NCBI RefSeq assembly: GCF_003853705.1 | Contig: NZ_QTQI01000006.1 | Coordinates: 186,001-250,000 of the forward strand | Source: Burkholderia sp. Bp8992 | Lineage (GTDB): Bacteria > Pseudomonadota > Gammaproteobacteria > Burkholderiales > Burkholderiaceae | Length of the DNA stretch: 64,000 nt | Reading direction: 5' to 3' | In this document: piece after piece, positions 28,634-35,197 of the stretch | Layout of the letters: the number at the start of each line of letters is the position of its first letter | How positions within the stretch are numbered: position 1 is the stretch's first letter | The notes under the pieces: model-generated | The model's database searches: none | Told to the model about the DNA's origin: nothing | Seen by the model: only the letters and a program-made list of their open reading frames with translations | Position numbers and translations under genes: made by a program

Positions 28634-29851
28634 TCACGCGGCCGCCGTTTCCGCCCGCGGTTTCGCGAACGGTCGGAACATGGACGCGATCAGGAACGCA
28701 CCGAGGCCGATCGCGAACGAACCGAGGTACAGCCAGCCGTAACTGCCGAACGTATCGATGATCAGGCCGCCGGCGACCGGGCCCGCGGCCATCCCGAGGC
28801 TGCCGGCCATCGCGCAGCCGCCGATCACGGTGCCCATCATCCTCAGCGGGAAGTTCTCGCGTGCCAGCACCGAATACAGCGGCATCACGCCCGCGTAGAT
28901 GAAGCCGAACAGCGTCGCGACCGCGTAGAACCCGTCGAGCGAGCGCACGAAGTAATAGCCGAGCGCGCCGAGCGCCTGCGCGAGCAGCCCGGCCACCAGC
29001 ATGCGCTTCGCGCCGAGGCGGTCGCCGAGAATCCCGAACGCGATCCGGCCGCCCATGCCCGCGAGCCCTTCGACGCTGTAGATCGACACCGCGACGATCA
29101 GCGGGATCCCGCACGTGACCGCGTAGCTGACCGTATGGAAGATCGGGCCCGAGTGCGTCGCGCAGCAGAAGAAATTGGTCAGCAGCAGGATCATGAACTG
29201 CGGCGAGCGCAGCGCGTCCGCGACCGACATCGCCGCGGGCGTGCCGGCGGGCGAAGGCGCGGCGGGCGCCGGTGCCTGGCCGAGCGCGGGCGCCCGCCGC
29301 ACCAGCAGCGACACCGGAATCATCACGACGGCCGCCAGCGCGGCAATCAGCAGCATCGACGTGCGCCAGTCGCGCACCGACACGAGCCACGCGGCGAGCG
29401 GTGCCATCGTCATCGGCGCCATCCCCATGCCGGCCGACACGAGCGACACCGCGAGGCTGCGATGCGTGTCGAACCAGCCCGTCACGCACGCCATCATCGG
29501 CGCGAATATCGCGGCCGTCGCGCCGCCGACGGCGAGGCCGAAGGTCAGCTGGAACACCAGCAGCGACGGCGCGCGGCTCGCCAGCGCGAGACTCGCCGAC
29601 AGCAGCACCGCGCCCGCGACGACGACCGGCCGCGTGCCGATCCGGTCCGACAGGCTGCCCCACGCCATGCTCGCGAAAGCCATTGCGATGAAGCCCAGAG
29701 TCATCGCAGTGGAAATGCCGGTCATCGACCAGCCCGTGTCGCGCGCGATGGCGCGCAGGAACACCGGCAGCGAAAACATCGCGCCGATCGCGACGCAGCC
29801 CATCAGGCCGCCCGCGGCGACGATCACCCAGCGGTATCGGGAATCCGTCAT
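28634..29851 (-). CDS. MFS transporter, oxalate/formate antiporter (OFA)-like
   Basis: A 405-residue inner-membrane permease with 12 predicted helices. The start YRWVIVAAGGLMGCVAIGAMFSLPVFL, the MFS loop motif WGSLSDRIGTRPVV between TM2 and TM3, and the mirrored FGILGDRLGAKRML after the central loop place it in the MFS. The overall pattern resembles OFA/monocarboxylate porters that carry small organic anions. It diverges from the GntR-flavoprotein operon with 290 bases between, so it probably imports or exports that system's substrate or product. Substrate unknown. Confidence 0.82.
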   Translation of the reverse strand: MTDSRYRWVIVAAGGLMGCVAIGAMFSLPVFLRAIARDTGWSMTGISTAMTLGFIAMAFASMAWGSLSDRIGTRPVVVAGAVLLSASLALASRAPSLLVFQLTFGLAVGGATAAIFAPMMACVTGWFDTHRSLAVSLVSAGMGMAPMTMAPLAAWLVSVRDWRTSMLLIAALAAVVMIPVSLLVRRAPALGQAPAPAAPSPAGTPAAMSVADALRSPQFMILLLTNFFCCATHSGPIFHTVSYAVTCGIPLIVAVSIYSVEGLAGMGGRIAFGILGDRLGAKRMLVAGLLAQALGALGYYFVRSLDGFYAVATLFGFIYAGVMPLYSVLARENFPLRMMGTVIGGCAMAGSLGMAAGPVAGGLIIDTFGSYGWLYLGSFAIGLGAFLIASMFRPFAKPRAETAAA

Positions 29852-30083
29852 TTGACGTCTCCTGGTTCGTTTCGCCTCTCCTCGGAAACCGGGCGCAGGC
29901 CGCGTGTGCGGCGCAATGCCCGGTCGACATGGATACGACGGGCGGACCGGCGGGAAATCGACATGCTCGACCGATGGGGCCGGCGATTTTTTATTGTCGA
30001 TCGATTCGCGAGGCCGGCAAGGGGCAGATCACGCGCTCGCCCTGCTTTTCCGGAATCGGAAATTCGATATCGGAAATGGTTGG

Positions 30084-30112
30084 TTGGGCCGCGCGACCGT
30101 GCTGACTACACT
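30084..30112 (+). promoter_or_regulatory. Candidate promoter of the GntR-flavoprotein operon
   Basis: TTGGGC (30084-30089), a 17-base spacer and TACACT (30107-30112). The predicted transcription start falls at or just before the CTTGT-CATA-ACAAG repeat, a layout typical of a self-repressed gene. Confidence 0.45.
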
Positions 30113-30120
30113 CGGATCAT

Positions 30121-30134
30121 CTTGTCATAACAAG
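30121..30134. promoter_or_regulatory. Inverted repeat, candidate GntR operator
   Basis: CTTGT (30121-30125) and ACAAG (30130-30134) are perfect complements around CATA. The site lies 7 bases before the GntR ATG, where binding would block transcription or translation start. HutC-subfamily regulators often bind GT(n)AC-type palindromes. Confidence 0.5.
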
Positions 30135-30141
30135 TTGATCG

Positions 30142-30912
30142 ATGACCTCATCCAACGTCGTGCCGCTGTCGGCGGCCCCGCTCTACGTGCAGATCAAGGA
30201 CACGCTGCGCGCGCGCATTCTCGACGGCACCTACGCGCCGCACAGCCGGATGCCGTCCGAACACGAACTCTGCACGATGTTCGACGTCAGCCGCATCACG
30301 GTGCGCCAGGCGCTCGGCGACCTGCAGAAGGAAGGACTGCTGTTCAAGCTGCACGGCAAGGGCACGTTCGTGTCGAAGCCGAAGGCGTTCCAGAACGTGA
30401 CATCGCTGCAGGGCTTCGCCGAGGCGATGTCGTCGATGGGCTACGAGATCGTCAACCAGCTGCGCAGCTTCCGCACCGTGAGGGCCGACCGCCATCTCGC
30501 GACGAAACTGAACGTGCCGGAGGGCGCGCCGCTCGTCGAGATCCACCGCGTGCGGCTGCTGAACCGCGAACCGGTGTCGCTCGAACAGACCTGGGTGCCC
30601 GAAGCGCTCGGCAAGCGCCTCGCGGGCGCCGATCTCGCGACCCGCGACATCTTCCTCGTGCTGGAAAACGACTGCGGCATCCCGCTCGGCCATGCCGACG
30701 TGTCGATCGACGCGATCCTCGCCGACGACGAGATCGTCGACGCGCTGCACGTCGAGGAAAGCAGCCCCGTGCTGCGCATCGAGCGCCTCACGCACGACGC
30801 GTCAGGTGCCCCGATCGACTACGAATACCTCTACTTCCGCGGCGACGCATTCCAGTACCGGCTGCGCATCGACCGGCAAAAGGCACGCAAATCTGCAAGG
30901 AAACAGCAATGA
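30142..30912 (+). CDS. GntR family regulator, HutC (UTRA) subfamily
   Basis: A 256-residue regulator. The winged helix (about 12-78) has PLYVQIKDTLRARILDGTY, MPSEHELCTMFDVSRITVRQAL and LHGKGTFVSKP. The UTRA ligand-binding domain (about 90-240) shows VPEGAPLVEIHRVRLLNREPVSLEQTWVP and the late YEYLYFRGDAFQYRL. UTRA domains bind small metabolites such as urocanate, amino sugars or phosphonates. Its stop overlaps the flavoprotein start (ATGA), so repressor and enzyme are made from the same message. The divergent MFS gene is probably also a target. Confidence 0.9.
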   Translation: MTSSNVVPLSAAPLYVQIKDTLRARILDGTYAPHSRMPSEHELCTMFDVSRITVRQALGDLQKEGLLFKLHGKGTFVSKPKAFQNVTSLQGFAEAMSSMGYEIVNQLRSFRTVRADRHLATKLNVPEGAPLVEIHRVRLLNREPVSLEQTWVPEALGKRLAGADLATRDIFLVLENDCGIPLGHADVSIDAILADDEIVDALHVEESSPVLRIERLTHDASGAPIDYEYLYFRGDAFQYRLRIDRQKARKSARKQQ

Positions 30913-32648
30913 CGACCCAGGTTCATGAATACGACGTCGTCGTGGTCGGCGGCGGCACGGCCGGCCCGATGGCGGCGATCAAGGCGAAGGAGCGCGACCC
31001 GTCCCTGCGCGTGCTGCTGCTCGAGAAAGCCAACGTGAAGCGCAGCGGCGCGATCTCGATGGGGATGGACGGCCTGAACAACGCGGTGATCCCCGGTCAT
31101 GCGACGCCCGAGCAGTACACGCGCGAGATCACGATCGCCAACGACGGCATCGTCGACCAGGAAGCCGTGTACGCGTATGCGACGCACAGCTTCGCGACGA
31201 TCGAGCAGCTCGACCGCTGGGGCGTGAAGTTCGAGAAGGACGGCACCGGCGACTACGCGGTGAAGAAGGTCCATCACATGGGCTCGTACGTGCTGCCGAT
31301 GCCGGAAGGACACGACATCAAGAAGGTGCTGTATCGGCAACTGAAGCGCGCGCGCATCGCGATCACGAACCGGATCGTCGCGACGCGGGTGCTGACCGAT
31401 ACGCAGGGCCGCGCGAGCGGCGTGCTCGGCTTCGACTGCCGCACCGCCGAGTTTCACGTGATCCGCGCGAAGGCCGTGATCCTCTGTTGCGGCGCCGCCG
31501 GCCGTCTCGGCTTGCCGGCGTCGGGCTACCTGATGGGCACCTACGAGAACCCGACCAACGCGGGAGACGGCTACGCGATGGCCTATCACGCGGGCGCCGC
31601 GCTCGCGAATCTCGAGTGCTTCCAGATCAACCCGCTGATCAAGGACTACAACGGCCCCGCATGCGCGTACGTGACGGGCCCGCTCGGCGGCTTCACCGCG
31701 AACGGCAAGGGCGAGCGCTTCATCGAATGCGACTACTGGAGCGGCCAGATGATGTGGGAGTTCTACCAGGAACTGCAGAGCGGCAACGGCCCCGTATTCC
31801 TGAAGCTCGACCATCTCGCGGAGGAAACGATCCAGACCATCGAGCAGATCCTGCATACGAACGAGCGGCCGAGCCGCGGCCGCTTCCATGCCGGGCGCGG
31901 CACCGACTACCGCAGCCAGATGGTCGAGATGCACATTTCCGAGATCGGCTTCTGCAGCGGCCACAGCGCATCGGGCGTGTACGTGAATGCACGCGCGGAG
32001 ACGACGGTGCCGGGGCTCTACGCCGCCGGCGACATGGCGGCCGTCCCGCACAACTACATGCTCGGTGCGTTCACGTACGGCTGGTTCGCCGGGCAGAACG
32101 CGGCCGATTACGTGGCCGGCCGCGAACACGCCCCGGTGGACGACGCACAGGTCGACGCCGAGCGCACCCGCGTGCTCGCGCCGTTGCTGCGCGAGCGCGG
32201 CCTGGCGCCGGCGCAGGTCGAGTACAAGCTGCGCCGCATGGTGAACGACTACCTGCAACCGCCGAAGGTGACGCGCAAGATGGAAATCGGGCTGCAGCGT
32301 TTTGACGAAATTACTGAGGATATCGAAAAAATAAAGGCCGACAACCCGCACGAACTGATGCGCGCGGCCGAAGTACGCGCGATCCGCGACTGTGCCGAAA
32401 TGGCCGCGCGCGCGTCGCTGTTCCGCACTGAAAGCCGATGGGGGCTGTACCACCATCGCGTCGACTTTCCGCACCGCAACGACGCCGAATGGTTCTGCCA
32501 CACGTGGCTGCGCAAGGATGCCGCGGGCGCGATGCGCAGCGAAAAACGGCCGGTCGAACCGTACGTCGTGCCGCTTGCCGACGACGAACGCGGCGCCTAC
32601 GCGCAGTTGCGCATTCGCGAACCGGCCGCGCTCGCGGCCGCCCTTTGA
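30909..32648 (+). CDS. AprA-like FAD-dependent oxidoreductase (fumarate reductase/APS reductase flavoprotein family)
   Basis: A 579-residue flavoprotein. The FAD dinucleotide motif VVVGGGTAG is at 11-19, followed by LLLEKANVKRSGAISMGMDGL, a stretch very like the alpha subunit of dissimilatory adenylylsulfate reductase. The family's second half is also recognisable: KAVILCCGAAGRL, NAGDGYAMAYHAGAALANLE, YVTGPLGGFT and VPGLYAAGDMA. A C-terminal helical domain (about 420-560) follows. It is about 80 residues shorter than typical AprA. The next gene encodes a di-cluster ferredoxin, as AprB does. No other sulfate-reduction genes are visible, so the substrate is open. The ATG at 30909 overlaps the GntR stop. 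Confidence 0.82.
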   Translation: MTTQVHEYDVVVVGGGTAGPMAAIKAKERDPSLRVLLLEKANVKRSGAISMGMDGLNNAVIPGHATPEQYTREITIANDGIVDQEAVYAYATHSFATIEQLDRWGVKFEKDGTGDYAVKKVHHMGSYVLPMPEGHDIKKVLYRQLKRARIAITNRIVATRVLTDTQGRASGVLGFDCRTAEFHVIRAKAVILCCGAAGRLGLPASGYLMGTYENPTNAGDGYAMAYHAGAALANLECFQINPLIKDYNGPACAYVTGPLGGFTANGKGERFIECDYWSGQMMWEFYQELQSGNGPVFLKLDHLAEETIQTIEQILHTNERPSRGRFHAGRGTDYRSQMVEMHISEIGFCSGHSASGVYVNARAETTVPGLYAAGDMAAVPHNYMLGAFTYGWFAGQNAADYVAGREHAPVDDAQVDAERTRVLAPLLRERGLAPAQVEYKLRRMVNDYLQPPKVTRKMEIGLQRFDEITEDIEKIKADNPHELMRAAEVRAIRDCAEMAARASLFRTESRWGLYHHRVDFPHRNDAEWFCHTWLRKDAAGAMRSEKRPVEPYVVPLADDERGAYAQLRIREPAALAAAL

Positions 32649-32659
32649 GGAACCTTGCC

Positions 32660-32905
32660 ATGCCCCATACCCTGCACGACATCTTCCAGCGCAGCAGCGC
32701 GCCCGTGACGATCGACGAGTCGTTGTGCATCGCCGACAAGGGCTGCACCGTGTGCGTCGACGTGTGTCCGCTCGACCTGCTCGCGATCGACGTCACCAAG
32801 GGCAAGGCCTACATGCAGTTCGACGAATGCTGGTACTGCATGCCGTGCGAACGCGACTGCCCGACCGGCGCGGTCAAGGTCGACATCCCTTACCTGCTGC
32901 GCTGA
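32660..32905 (+). CDS. AprB-like ferredoxin with two [4Fe-4S] sites
   Basis: An 81-residue iron-sulfur protein with exactly eight cysteines. Site one is Cys23-x5-Cys29-x2-Cys32-x3-Cys36-Pro, with a lengthened first gap. Site two is Cys57-x2-Cys60-x2-Cys63-x3-Cys67-Pro. DECWYCMPC at 55-63 places a Trp after the first cysteine of site two, as in the ECWECYSC-type motif of AprB. It lacks the long C-terminal tail with which AprB embraces AprA. It begins 11 bases after the flavoprotein stop and presumably passes electrons to or from its FAD. Preceded by GAGGAAC. Confidence 0.88.
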   Translation: MPHTLHDIFQRSSAPVTIDESLCIADKGCTVCVDVCPLDLLAIDVTKGKAYMQFDECWYCMPCERDCPTGAVKVDIPYLLR

Positions 32906-32936
32906 CTGCGTGCGTCAGCGCCCTTCTCCCTCGCTC

Positions 32937-33932
32937 ATGACCGACTCCTCCTTCGCTTCCCCGCTACCCGGCGCATACGGGCACGACCAGGCCGCGCCCG
33001 TCGCCCGCCTCGCCGCGCCCGACGCGTCCGTGCGCCGCGTCGCGCTGTTCGAACTCGCGGATCTCGAAGATCCCGAACTCGTGCCGTCGTTCGTTGCCGT
33101 GCTGCGCACCGACCCGTCGGCCGACGTGCGCGGCGAAGCCGCCCGTGTACTTGGTGCATGGGAACAGCCCGATGTCGTCGACGCACTGTGCGGCGCGCTG
33201 CTCGATCCCGATGAAGACGTGCGCGCCGCCGCCGCACAGAGCTTGTCCGAACTGAAGGACGCGGCATCGGGTACCGTGCTGGGCCGCTGGGCCGACCGGC
33301 CCGAGCCGTTCGTGCGCCGTGCCGTGCTGCGGGGAATGCGCGAGTTGCGCGACCCCGGCGCGTTCGCACCCGCGCTGCGCGCGCTCGATGCGGAGCTGCC
33401 GGCCGTGCGCGCCGAAGCCGTTGCGGTGCTCGGCTGGCTCAAGGATGCGCGCGCCCTGGCGCCGCTCGCGCGCATCGCGACGGCCGACACCGATGCGGAC
33501 GTGCGACGTTCCGCGGTCGGCTCGATCGGCTTCGCGGCCGCCGACGATGCGACCGTCGTCGACGCGCTGCTCGCCGCGCTGCGCGACCGCGCATGGCAGG
33601 TGCGCGAGGAAGCCGCCACGACGCTCGGCAAGCTGCGCGTGCCGACGGCACGCGAGCCGCTCGTCGCCGCGCTCGACGACGAATATTGGCAGGTGCGCCT
33701 GCGTGCCGCGCGCGCGCTCGGACAGTTGCGCGATGCGGCTGCGGCGCCGGCCGTCGTCGCACTGCTCTCGCATGCGATCAGCAATCTGCGCAAGGAAGCC
33801 GCGCTTGCGCTCGGCGAATTGCGCGACCGTGCAACACTGCCGGCGCTGAACGACGCGCTCGAAGATCGCGACCCCGAAGTCCGCAAGGCCGTGCGGATCG
33901 CGATCGGCCAAATCGGCGACGCTCCGCGATGA
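32937..33932 (+). CDS. HEAT-repeat (PBS lyase-type) protein
   Basis: A 331-residue solenoid protein made almost wholly of about nine helical repeats of roughly 31 residues. Repeated signatures are DVRGEAARVLG, DVRAAAAQSLSEL, AVRAEAVAVLGWL, DVRRSAVGSIG, QVREEAATTLGKL and QVRLRAARALGQL. Such repeats occur in phycobilin lyases and in many scaffold proteins; no catalytic residues can be assigned. The ATG at 32937 is used; a GTG at 32910 is in frame. It lies 31 bases after the ferredoxin and overlaps the DUF971 gene by four, so it belongs to the same operon and may act as an assembly factor. Confidence 0.85.
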   Translation: MTDSSFASPLPGAYGHDQAAPVARLAAPDASVRRVALFELADLEDPELVPSFVAVLRTDPSADVRGEAARVLGAWEQPDVVDALCGALLDPDEDVRAAAAQSLSELKDAASGTVLGRWADRPEPFVRRAVLRGMRELRDPGAFAPALRALDAELPAVRAEAVAVLGWLKDARALAPLARIATADTDADVRRSAVGSIGFAAADDATVVDALLAALRDRAWQVREEAATTLGKLRVPTAREPLVAALDDEYWQVRLRAARALGQLRDAAAAPAVVALLSHAISNLRKEAALALGELRDRATLPALNDALEDRDPEVRKAVRIAIGQIGDAPR

Positions 33933-34207
33933 GCGCGCCGACCGAAATCGCACTCGATCATCCGTCACGCGCGTTGACGCTGCGCTGGCCGGACGGCAAC
34001 ACGCAGCGCATCGGCTACGCGCAATTGCGCGGCGATTGCCCGTGCGCGGAATGCCGACGGATCCGGCGTGACGGCGGTCGCGTCGATGCACGGCCCGACC
34101 TGACGCTGGAAGGCGTGGAACCGGCCGGCTACGGCATCCGCTTCATGTTCGGCGACGGCCACGCGCGCGGCATCTATCCGTGGCCGTATCTGGCGGGCAT
34201 CGCCTAG
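33929..34207 (+). CDS. DUF971 domain protein
   Basis: A 92-residue stand-alone DUF971 domain. The pattern LTLRWPDGNTQRIGYAQLRGDCPCAECRR is diagnostic, followed by VEPAGYGIRFMFGDGHARGIYPWPYL. The CPCAEC motif could hold a metal. DUF971 also occurs as the N-terminal domain of gamma-butyrobetaine hydroxylase and at the C-terminus of the plastid iron-sulfur scaffold HCF101, so a role in iron-sulfur handling for the neighbouring ferredoxin is possible. The start overlaps the HEAT gene stop (ATGA). Confidence 0.88.
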   Translation: MSAPTEIALDHPSRALTLRWPDGNTQRIGYAQLRGDCPCAECRRIRRDGGRVDARPDLTLEGVEPAGYGIRFMFGDGHARGIYPWPYLAGIA

Positions 34208-34312
34208 CGCCCGTCATGCGGCTACCGCGGTCGTACGAGCGGGATGCAGGCATGCGCAAACGCTGCGATACTGGCGCCCACGATCGTCTTCACCCACCGT
34301 GGGAGCCAGGAC

Positions 34313-35197
34313 ATGCAGACGGCAGTCGGATTCATCGGCCTCGGCGTGATGGGCACGCCGATGGCGCTCAATCTTGCGCGGGCCGGCACGCCGCTCGTCG
34401 CATGGAGCCGTTCGCACGGCAGCGACGACGCACTTCGCGCCGCCGGCGCACACGTCGCCGAGGACGTCGACGACGTATTCGCGACCTGCCGCACCGTGAT
34501 CCTGATGCTCGCGAACGACGCGGCAATCGATGCCGTCCTCGCGCGCGGCATGCCCGGTTTTGCCGCTCGCGTCGGCGGCCGCACGATCGTCAACATGGGC
34601 ACGAATGCGCCCGAATACTCGCGCGCGCTCGCCGATGAAATCGCCGCCGCGTCGGGCCGCTACGTCGAGGCGCCCGTGTCGGGCTCGCGCAAGCCGGCCG
34701 AAGCTGGCCAGCTCGTCGTGATGCTGGCCGGTGCACCGGACGACGTCGATGCGGTGCGCGCGCTCGTGAAACCGCTGTGCCGCGACAGCTTCGTATGCGG
34801 CGACGTGCCGTCGGCGCTGACGATGAAGCTCGCCGTCAACCTGTTCCTGATCACGATGGTCACCGGTCTCGCCGAAGCCACGCATTTCGCGCAACGCCAC
34901 GGTATCGACCTCGCGCGCTTCGCCGACGTGCTGAACGCGGGCCCGATGGCCAGCGACGTGTCGCGCGTGAAGCTCGGCAAGCTCGTCGCGGAAGATTTCT
35001 CGGTACAGGCCGCGATCACCGACGTGCTGAAGAACGCGCGCCTCGTCGCCGAATCGGCACGCGGCATCGGCATCGCTTCGCCGCTGCTCGACATCTGCCA
35101 TGCGCTTTACGGCGAAACCGAGCAGGCTGGACATGGCGCGGCCGACATGGTCGCCGTGATCCGTGCGATCGAACAGCGTACCGGGGACGCGCGATGA
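34313..35197 (+). CDS. NAD(P)-dependent beta-hydroxyacid dehydrogenase
   Basis: A 294-residue oxidoreductase of the 3-hydroxyisobutyrate dehydrogenase family, distinct from the one at 11041-11934. The Rossmann motif VGFIGLGVMGTPMALNL is at residues 5-21, the substrate loop YVEAPVSGSRKPAEAGQL near 120, and the catalytic Lys in TMKLAVNL (about 170). AGGAC lies upstream of the chosen ATG; a longer in-frame start at 34244 has no such support. It may reduce succinic semialdehyde, glyoxylate or a related semialdehyde. It is 105 bases after the DUF971 gene, so membership of that operon is uncertain. Confidence 0.82.
   Translation: MQTAVGFIGLGVMGTPMALNLARAGTPLVAWSRSHGSDDALRAAGAHVAEDVDDVFATCRTVILMLANDAAIDAVLARGMPGFAARVGGRTIVNMGTNAPEYSRALADEIAAASGRYVEAPVSGSRKPAEAGQLVVMLAGAPDDVDAVRALVKPLCRDSFVCGDVPSALTMKLAVNLFLITMVTGLAEATHFAQRHGIDLARFADVLNAGPMASDVSRVKLGKLVAEDFSVQAAITDVLKNARLVAESARGIGIASPLLDICHALYGETEQAGHGAADMVAVIRAIEQRTGDAR

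Follow-up and report, generated by a model that had tools for sequence, protein, structure and literature searches.

What does a flavoprotein that resembles adenosine 5'-phosphosulfate (APS) reductase, with a different active site, do in Burkholderia sp. Bp8992, where it is encoded together with its own ferredoxin and regulator? The question was raised by a stretch of 64,000 nucleotides of this organism (contig NZ_QTQI01000006.1), hereafter the window, and concerns six genes at positions 28634-34207. All six had been described in an initial annotation of the window, and they were recovered at the same positions, including the overlaps and gaps of at most 31 bases. We found that the window holds one copy of a widespread yet unstudied bacterial gene set, here called the cassette, whose role is probably, and with rather good confidence, the scavenging of organosulfur compounds.

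The enzyme pair and its relatives

Gene labels were assigned from Pfam and NCBIfam profile matches, the latter judged against curated cut-offs. The centre of the cassette is a pair of genes on the forward strand, coding for an AprA-like flavin adenine dinucleotide (FAD) subunit of 579 aa (30909-32648; FAD_binding_2, 4.3e-33) and, after a gap of 11 bases, an AprB-like dicluster ferredoxin of 81 aa with eight Cys (32660-32905; Fer4_7, 2.1e-8). By sequence, the 8-Cys pattern recurs in 56/56 open reading frames (ORFs) of the clustered ferredoxin family. The flavoprotein is a member of NF006131/PRK08275 (1155.7 bits, cut-off 587), an existing NCBI family with no assigned function and the sole name "fumarate reductase/succinate dehydrogenase flavoprotein subunit". 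Its second-best match, at 870 bits, was PRK13800 (NF010374), a model of 898 positions that joins a flavoprotein and a HEAT part; neither family name gives a role. The flavoprotein matches the first part of this model and the separate HEAT protein of the window matches positions 595-894. In Tsukamurella one annotated gene of 893 aa contains both parts, and in Nonomuraea HEAT similarity follows immediately behind the flavoprotein, as compared at the level of similarity and not of ORF boundaries. That both proteins match a single model is gene-fusion evidence for their joint action.

The characterised families nearest to the pair were considered and rejected as identities. The flavoprotein reached 185.1 bits against the AprA model TIGR02061 (cut-off 641.75, which was passed in a control by 7 of the 9 genomes searched, namely those with AprA) and 289.3 bits against the AprA-like, assimilatory type PRK06854 (NF005331, cut-off 557). 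Its scores were 167.6 bits for succinate dehydrogenase/fumarate reductase (TIGR01812, cut-off 567.3) and 116.6 bits for L-aspartate oxidase, NadB (TIGR00551, cut-off 452.75). The best NCBIfam match of the ferredoxin was aprB (TIGR02060), with 38.3 bits against a cut-off of 135.65. In the flavoprotein tree, which contained no FrdA row and from which the NadB rows L217 and L218 were excluded (wrong frame), the PRK08275-type clade is the sister of the APS and 3'-phosphoadenosine 5'-phosphosulfate (PAPS) reductases, with the SdhA/NadB clade set apart at 100/100. A relative from Ilyobacter falls with AprA, outside the PRK08275-type clade; its operon also contains cysC, cysD and the gene of a GTP-binding protein.

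The active-site residues of AprA, which we take to be Arg265 (catalytic), Trp234, Asn74 and His398, are partly replaced. The Arg265 and Trp234 columns are invariant across the eight AprA rows of the alignment and the Ilyobacter row, and both residues are also kept by the PAPS reductase of Methanothermococcus thermolithotrophicus (8a8o). In contrast, 46/46 members of the cassette family carry Leu243 and Tyr212 there. Asn74 and His398 are retained as Asn57 and His352, again in 46/46, and four Cys are invariant in the same 46 members. Three of these, Cys237, Cys252 and Cys349, align near AprA active-site positions where the eight AprA rows have Asn, Gly and Met/Leu. An AlphaFold2 model of the flavoprotein (46 sequences, mean predicted local distance difference test score, pLDDT, 72.7) confirmed the fold.

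Judged by sequence, flavoprotein and ferredoxin make up a two-subunit flavin/iron-sulfur enzyme that resembles AprAB, is related to APS reductase as a sister and differs from it in the active site. The initial annotation had likewise read the pair as an AprAB-like two-subunit redox enzyme and as neither APS reductase, succinate dehydrogenase/fumarate reductase nor aspartate oxidase, and the cut-offs, the tree and the active-site columns agree with it. The likeness to dissimilatory AprAB (1jnr/2fja) is a dicluster ferredoxin beta subunit encoded beside the alpha subunit. The cassette differs by its scores under the aprA and aprB cut-offs, by the two substitutions, and by HEAT, DUF971 and GntR proteins of its own and usually an ATP-binding cassette (ABC) importer. 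Ilyobacter queries for CysC, CysD and CysN gave no homologue in the 64 kb, a search that did not extend to Qmo, Dsr or Sat.

Separately, a second FAD protein of 538-553 aa lies beside the cassette in Nostoc (locus L046, 7009-9022), Dolichospermum (L066, 319-1965) and Andreprevotia (L103, 16591-18204), in two of the three loci with a ferredoxin of its own; none was over a cut-off among the 25 best NCBIfam matches.

Distribution of the cassette

Downstream of the ferredoxin, after 31 bases, the window carries a HEAT-repeat protein (32937-33932, forward; HEAT_2, 1.9e-69), which overlaps by 4 bases a DUF971 (GBBH-like_N) protein with the CxCxxC motif CPCAEC (33929-34207, forward; PF06155, 6.3e-20). 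Upstream, a GntR/HutC-type regulator with a UTRA domain (30142-30912, forward; UTRA 1e-38, GntR 2.9e-21) shares a 4-base ATGA overlap with the flavoprotein gene.

Among 61 species genomes of Burkholderia, 42 encode the flavoprotein; the nearest relative, G001, has 34% of the sampled words in common with the window. Forty of the 42 loci were extracted (the fragmented assemblies G331 and G344 were left out), making 41 with the window. GntR, flavoprotein, ferredoxin and HEAT occur together in 41/41, DUF971 in 40/41 and a major facilitator superfamily (MFS) gene in 37/41, and the position of GntR 5' of the flavoprotein is constant throughout. This co-occurrence is far beyond chance. A beta-hydroxyacid dehydrogenase, tartronate semialdehyde reductase-like but under all cut-offs shown, lies 3' of DUF971 at 34244-35197 in the window and in many genus loci.

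Outside the genus, tblastn detected the family on plasmids from Burkholderiales, Acinetobacter, rhizobia, Methylobacterium, Methylocystis, Acidithiobacillus, cyanobacteria and actinobacteria, with identities of about 59-90%, and scanning a single genome for each species yielded at least 587 confirmed stretches. The 80 of these closest to the Nostoc query were taken as loci, which biases the taxon mix, and were combined with 12 plasmid loci. The resulting 92 loci, some clipped by contig ends, comprise 51 from Pseudomonadota, 40 from Cyanobacteria and one from Actinobacteria. The ferredoxin is present in 88 and a separate HEAT protein in 86. DUF971 was found in 36/51 loci of Pseudomonadota and 0/40 of Cyanobacteria; conversely, a DUF59-Mrp ATPase was found in 34/40 and 0/51, respectively. 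GntR occurs in 42/51 loci of Pseudomonadota and in the single actinobacterial locus. An even draw of 299 Pseudomonadota genomes contained 15 over the family cut-off. Stretches of 20 kb were taken around 14 of these cassettes, from eight genera (G001 was omitted as already in the Burkholderia set), and ferredoxin, HEAT and DUF971 accompany the flavoprotein in 14/14, the importer's binding protein in 13/14. These neighbours are conserved together in other genomes, in support of the initial annotation.

It had also offered the system as a candidate for an undescribed one, and no paper describing the PRK08275-type cassette or family was found in the open-licence PubMed Central (PMC) literature searched. 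"PRK13800" appears in a passage of PMC8401276 as the label of a fungal phosphatase HEAT subunit, and passages of PMC8557817 and PMC5218467 name CysH-type enzymes or report no aprA match.

Importers, sulfur genes and regulation

Import had initially been assigned to the MFS protein, encoded divergently at 28634-29851 on the reverse strand, 290 bases from GntR (MFS_1, 2.1e-58). This part was not supported. The window-type MFS gene was found in 0/92 loci outside the genus, for which reason it was rejected as a core member and is treated as a genus-specific neighbour, and 12 of the 13 genus loci that keep an ABC importer have the MFS gene too. The ABC importer, absent from the initial picture, consists of binding protein, permease and ATPase, and lies between ferredoxin and HEAT in 13/41 genus loci. 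In the 92-locus set a binding protein of 475 aa occurs in 56 loci, its nearest solved relatives being taurine- and alkanesulfonate-binding proteins, and an SsuA-like binding protein in 26. By homology, the importer that usually accompanies the cassette belongs to the taurine/sulfonate type of ABC transporters. Binding protein and ATPase are related to those of SsuEADCB and TauABCD, mostly under the Ssu/Tau cut-offs, and Ssu/Tau genes are sometimes adjacent. However, SsuD and TauD release sulfite oxidatively with O2, and the cassette instead has a ferredoxin-linked flavoprotein.

Of the 28 gaps that lack the importer, blastn matched 10 to gaps that contain it (best E 5e-7 or lower); nine overlap importer coding sequence, at the end of the ATPase gene or the beginning of the binding-protein gene, and the tenth matches spacer only. 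On the flavoprotein tree, built by a quick method, the importer state requires 8 changes, at least 6 of them on well supported branches. Taken together, relic gaps and tree changes argue that the importer was lost repeatedly in the genus and that the window is one such case; by comparison with the genus loci, the site of loss would be the ferredoxin/HEAT spacer at 32906-32936, in which blastn found no match to importer-bearing gaps.

Two controlled comparisons link the cassette to sulfur genes. Firstly, 30 of the 80 scan loci were chosen, mostly one per genus, and 29 genomes were searched (L059, with SsuD nearby, was not among them); across their 182 Mb, SsuD-like matches (E up to 1e-25) numbered 67. 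Such a match lay inside the fetched stretch, within about 10 kb, in 4/29 loci against 0.21 expected (Poisson p 7e-5), namely in Brasilonema, Nostoc, Pseudanabaena and a betaproteobacterium. Secondly, genes of a fixed sulfur list were present within 20 kb of 5/14 even-sample cassettes (TauD twice, YeiH three times) and in 0/26 control segments picked at even steps from 7 of the 14 genomes, with a Fisher p of 0.003 that is too small, since the five positives fall in 2/8 genera and the YeiH matches (102-110 bits) are weak. In the 92-locus set a listed gene occurs in 43 loci (28/64 of those of at least 19 kb; 25/55 genera).

Individual neighbourhoods are informative, with the reservation that the label "SsuD" as used in part of this comparison also covers NtaA/DmoA-type monooxygenases. 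In Methylococcales (L087), SsuE, binding proteins, SsuD, permease/ATPase, an SfnC-like protein and an amidohydrolase stand 5' of the flavoprotein on one strand. On cyanobacterial plasmids HEAT and Mrp are followed by TauE/SafE and a sulfate exporter; in Dolichospermum MetY and MetX are located between flavoprotein and HEAT, and in Nonomuraea SsuD, MetY and MetX matches adjoin the cassette. Neighbours in Paraburkholderia include SsuA over both cut-offs, NtaA/DmoA-type monooxygenases, a family 2A encapsulin desulfurase cargo, EpsC and rhodanese. The family 2A encapsulin cysteine desulfurase cargo, an EpsC-type serine acetyltransferase and rhodanese adjoin the cassette in L113 (13337-18157), L090 and L095. 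Encapsulins are connected with sulfur in parts of PMC8346489 and PMC8049743, the latter describing induction by sulfur starvation in Synechococcus. In the two Prochlorococcus loci, L078 and L079, the cassette is accompanied by genes for a TauA-like binding protein, a YeiH-type exporter and an amidase resembling allophanate hydrolase, despite a sulfate-rich sea.

A LysR regulator of cyanobacteria carries a fused domain with 33-36% identity to the 475-aa binding protein, which suggests that the imported ligand may double as a regulatory signal there. Searched with the first 300 residues as query, LysR of this type was found in 15/40 cyanobacterial loci; examples of the fusion are L032 (6676-8676), L264 (6403-8439) and L078 (7773-9749).

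Electron carriers are also found nearby. FdxA ferredoxins occur near the cassette in 10 loci of 10 genera. In 8 loci of 8 genera there is a 1190-aa protein that combines a GltD-like part with one resembling ferredoxin reductase; many of these neighbours were found in sulfur oxidisers. A ferredoxin-NADP reductase lies near the Methylobacterium cassette. These neighbours point to a reductive direction of the pair, as far as gene context can tell. The 1190-aa protein, for example at 16742-20329 in L107 and 17070-20642 in L092, has a relative in PRK06567 (glutamate synthase beta/ferredoxin-reductase-like) but scores under the cut-off of that family.

The HEAT and DUF971 proteins have counterparts in iron-sulfur (Fe-S) cluster delivery. 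MMS19 is a HEAT protein. It is part of a eukaryotic targeting complex, and the [4Fe-4S] carrier HCF101 combines DUF59, a Mrp-type nucleoside triphosphatase (NTPase) and DUF971 with CxCxxC, as described in parts of PMC7980591. Cassettes carry either DUF971, with CxCxxC in 34/36 stretches, or the DUF59-Mrp ATPase, whose scanned cyanobacterial form has DUF59 and NTPase parts and no DUF971 match. Unlike in HCF101, the parts are separate genes, with one part per lineage, and are joined by a HEAT protein. By this analogy, we infer that HEAT with DUF971, or with the DUF59-Mrp ATPase, may constitute a dedicated Fe-S loading set.

A palindromic candidate operator, CTTGTCATAACAAG, lies at 30121-30134, its 3' end 7 bases before the GntR start; binding of GntR there is presumed. 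CTTGT-N4-ACAAG occupies the same place in 41/41 genus loci. A search of 16 genomes with CTTGTYATRACAAG gave one site per genome in 12/12 carriers, that of the cassette, and none in 4/4 non-carriers, so that no further regulon targets were found by this pattern. The core TGTYATRACA was present within 160 bases 5' of GntR in 24/42 other loci (13/23 genera), against a mean of 0.05 in block shuffles. Given the single local target per genome, the pattern fits GntR as a putative substrate-specific repressor at this site.

A proposed route to organic sulfur

From what was observed directly, namely homology, gene set, active-site substitutions, operator conservation and genomic context, we infer a substrate class, a direction, an adduct chemistry, a role for the helpers and a mode of repression. 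A sulfonate-like anion (R-SO3-) would be imported via the cognate TauA/SsuA-type ABC importer, and in importer-less relatives, the window included, via other importers of sulfonates or perhaps the MFS protein. Reduced nicotinamide adenine dinucleotide phosphate (NADPH) would supply electrons to ferredoxin, from which they would reach first both [4Fe-4S] clusters in the AprB-like subunit and then the FAD of the AprA-like subunit. The reduced FAD would split the bond to sulfur and give sulfite, probably by way of an N5-sulfite adduct like the one put forward for APS reductase, and the sulfite would enter assimilation or, in some cyanobacteria, be exported. HEAT and DUF971 (or the DUF59-Mrp ATPase) would load or hold the Fe-S clusters on the pair, and GntR would repress the operon at its one operator until released by substrate or product. 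Taken with all its steps, this scheme, in which a ferredoxin-fed flavoenzyme with Fe-S helpers of its own reductively frees sulfite from a compound of the sulfonate kind, is a tentative proposal to which we give slightly less than an even chance. The stronger statement, that the pair represents a new desulfonating class in aerobic bacteria and cyanobacteria, a ferredoxin-dependent sister of APS reductase removing sulfite reductively from organic sulfonates with invariant Cys at a remodelled active site and HEAT plus HCF101-like halves as its own Fe-S loading set, is rather doubtful. The earlier guess at the substrate, "a small organic or sulfonated acid", stands in its sulfonated part, which the sulfur-gene context favours; a sulfur-free small organic acid finds no support in that context.

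Several observations weigh against this proposal. The importer was lost many times while the enzyme was kept, which leaves room for a substrate that has another origin or arises inside the cell, and the 475-aa binding protein is under the SsuA cut-off (114.8 against 163.5). No listed sulfur gene accompanies 49/92 loci and 9/14 even-sample cassettes (6/8 genera), nor was one found in the 64 kb of the window, and an SsuA-like binding protein, not itself on the list, occurs in 1/26 control segments. With Arg and Trp replaced by Leu243 and Tyr212, APS-type chemistry is not to be assumed. The pLDDT falls below 50 around the active site, in stretches that include residues 196-218, 239-260 and 337-344, and the conserved Cys are therefore not placeable from the model. 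As for the helpers, the CxCxxC motif is absent from 2/36 DUF971 stretches, and the Mrp CxxC motif was found in only 11/22 ATPases.

Within the same organosulfur role, the enzyme might reduce an S-S, S-N or S-O bond through active-site Cys residues, with no flavin-sulfite adduct; thiosulfonate, S-sulfocysteine, sulfamate and aryl sulfate are candidate substrates. The invariant Cys, three of them near the AprA active-site positions, would suit such chemistry, and SsuA/TauA-family importers also accept sulfate esters. Yet the structural model is unreliable where these Cys lie, and the sulfur neighbours include C-sulfonate enzymes such as SsuD and TauD. We regard this alternative as unlikely.

Sulfite release was further compared with a fumarate-reductase-like reaction, in which a small organic acid, perhaps a sulfonated one, would be reduced at a C=C or keto bond; this is the broad form of the initial annotation. 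Fold and FAD domain are those of the fumarate reductase superfamily, but no Arg stands opposite SdhA Arg286, presumably the proton-shuttle residue, whether the alignment is made with HMMER (Gly279) or with MAFFT (variable residue 283), and the tree, which has no FrdA row, separates the flavoprotein from SdhA/NadB as given above; we consider such a reaction quite improbable. About as improbable is a service of the pair in Fe-S or sulfur-storage metabolism without an imported substrate, for example as a source of reduced sulfur for the desulfurase encapsulin. It would account for the repeated importer loss and for the encapsulin cargo and EpsC genes beside 8/92 loci (4 genera), but 84/92 loci lack such a cargo gene and the binding protein is present in 13/14 even-sample cassettes. 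Least probable is an oxidative dehydrogenase moving electrons from an imported compound to ferredoxin, since, even with aerobic hosts and the reversibility of dissimilatory APS reductases noted in part of PMC10322725, the adjoining NADPH-linked ferredoxin reductases and sulfur-starvation genes suit reductive scavenging better.

The family is common, with the counts given above, and its carriers range over rhizobial plasmids, Acinetobacter, Pseudomonas, Burkholderiales, cyanobacteria including Prochlorococcus, and actinobacteria. The annotated records that were consulted label the cassette flavoprotein "fumarate reductase/succinate dehydrogenase flavoprotein subunit", and because of this annotation it is probably mis-read in metabolic models. 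The cassette is also a compact test case for client-specific Fe-S insertion by HEAT and DUF971/Mrp proteins. If sulfite is indeed released from sulfonates, these organisms would possess a non-oxygenase route into a widespread pool of organic sulfur.

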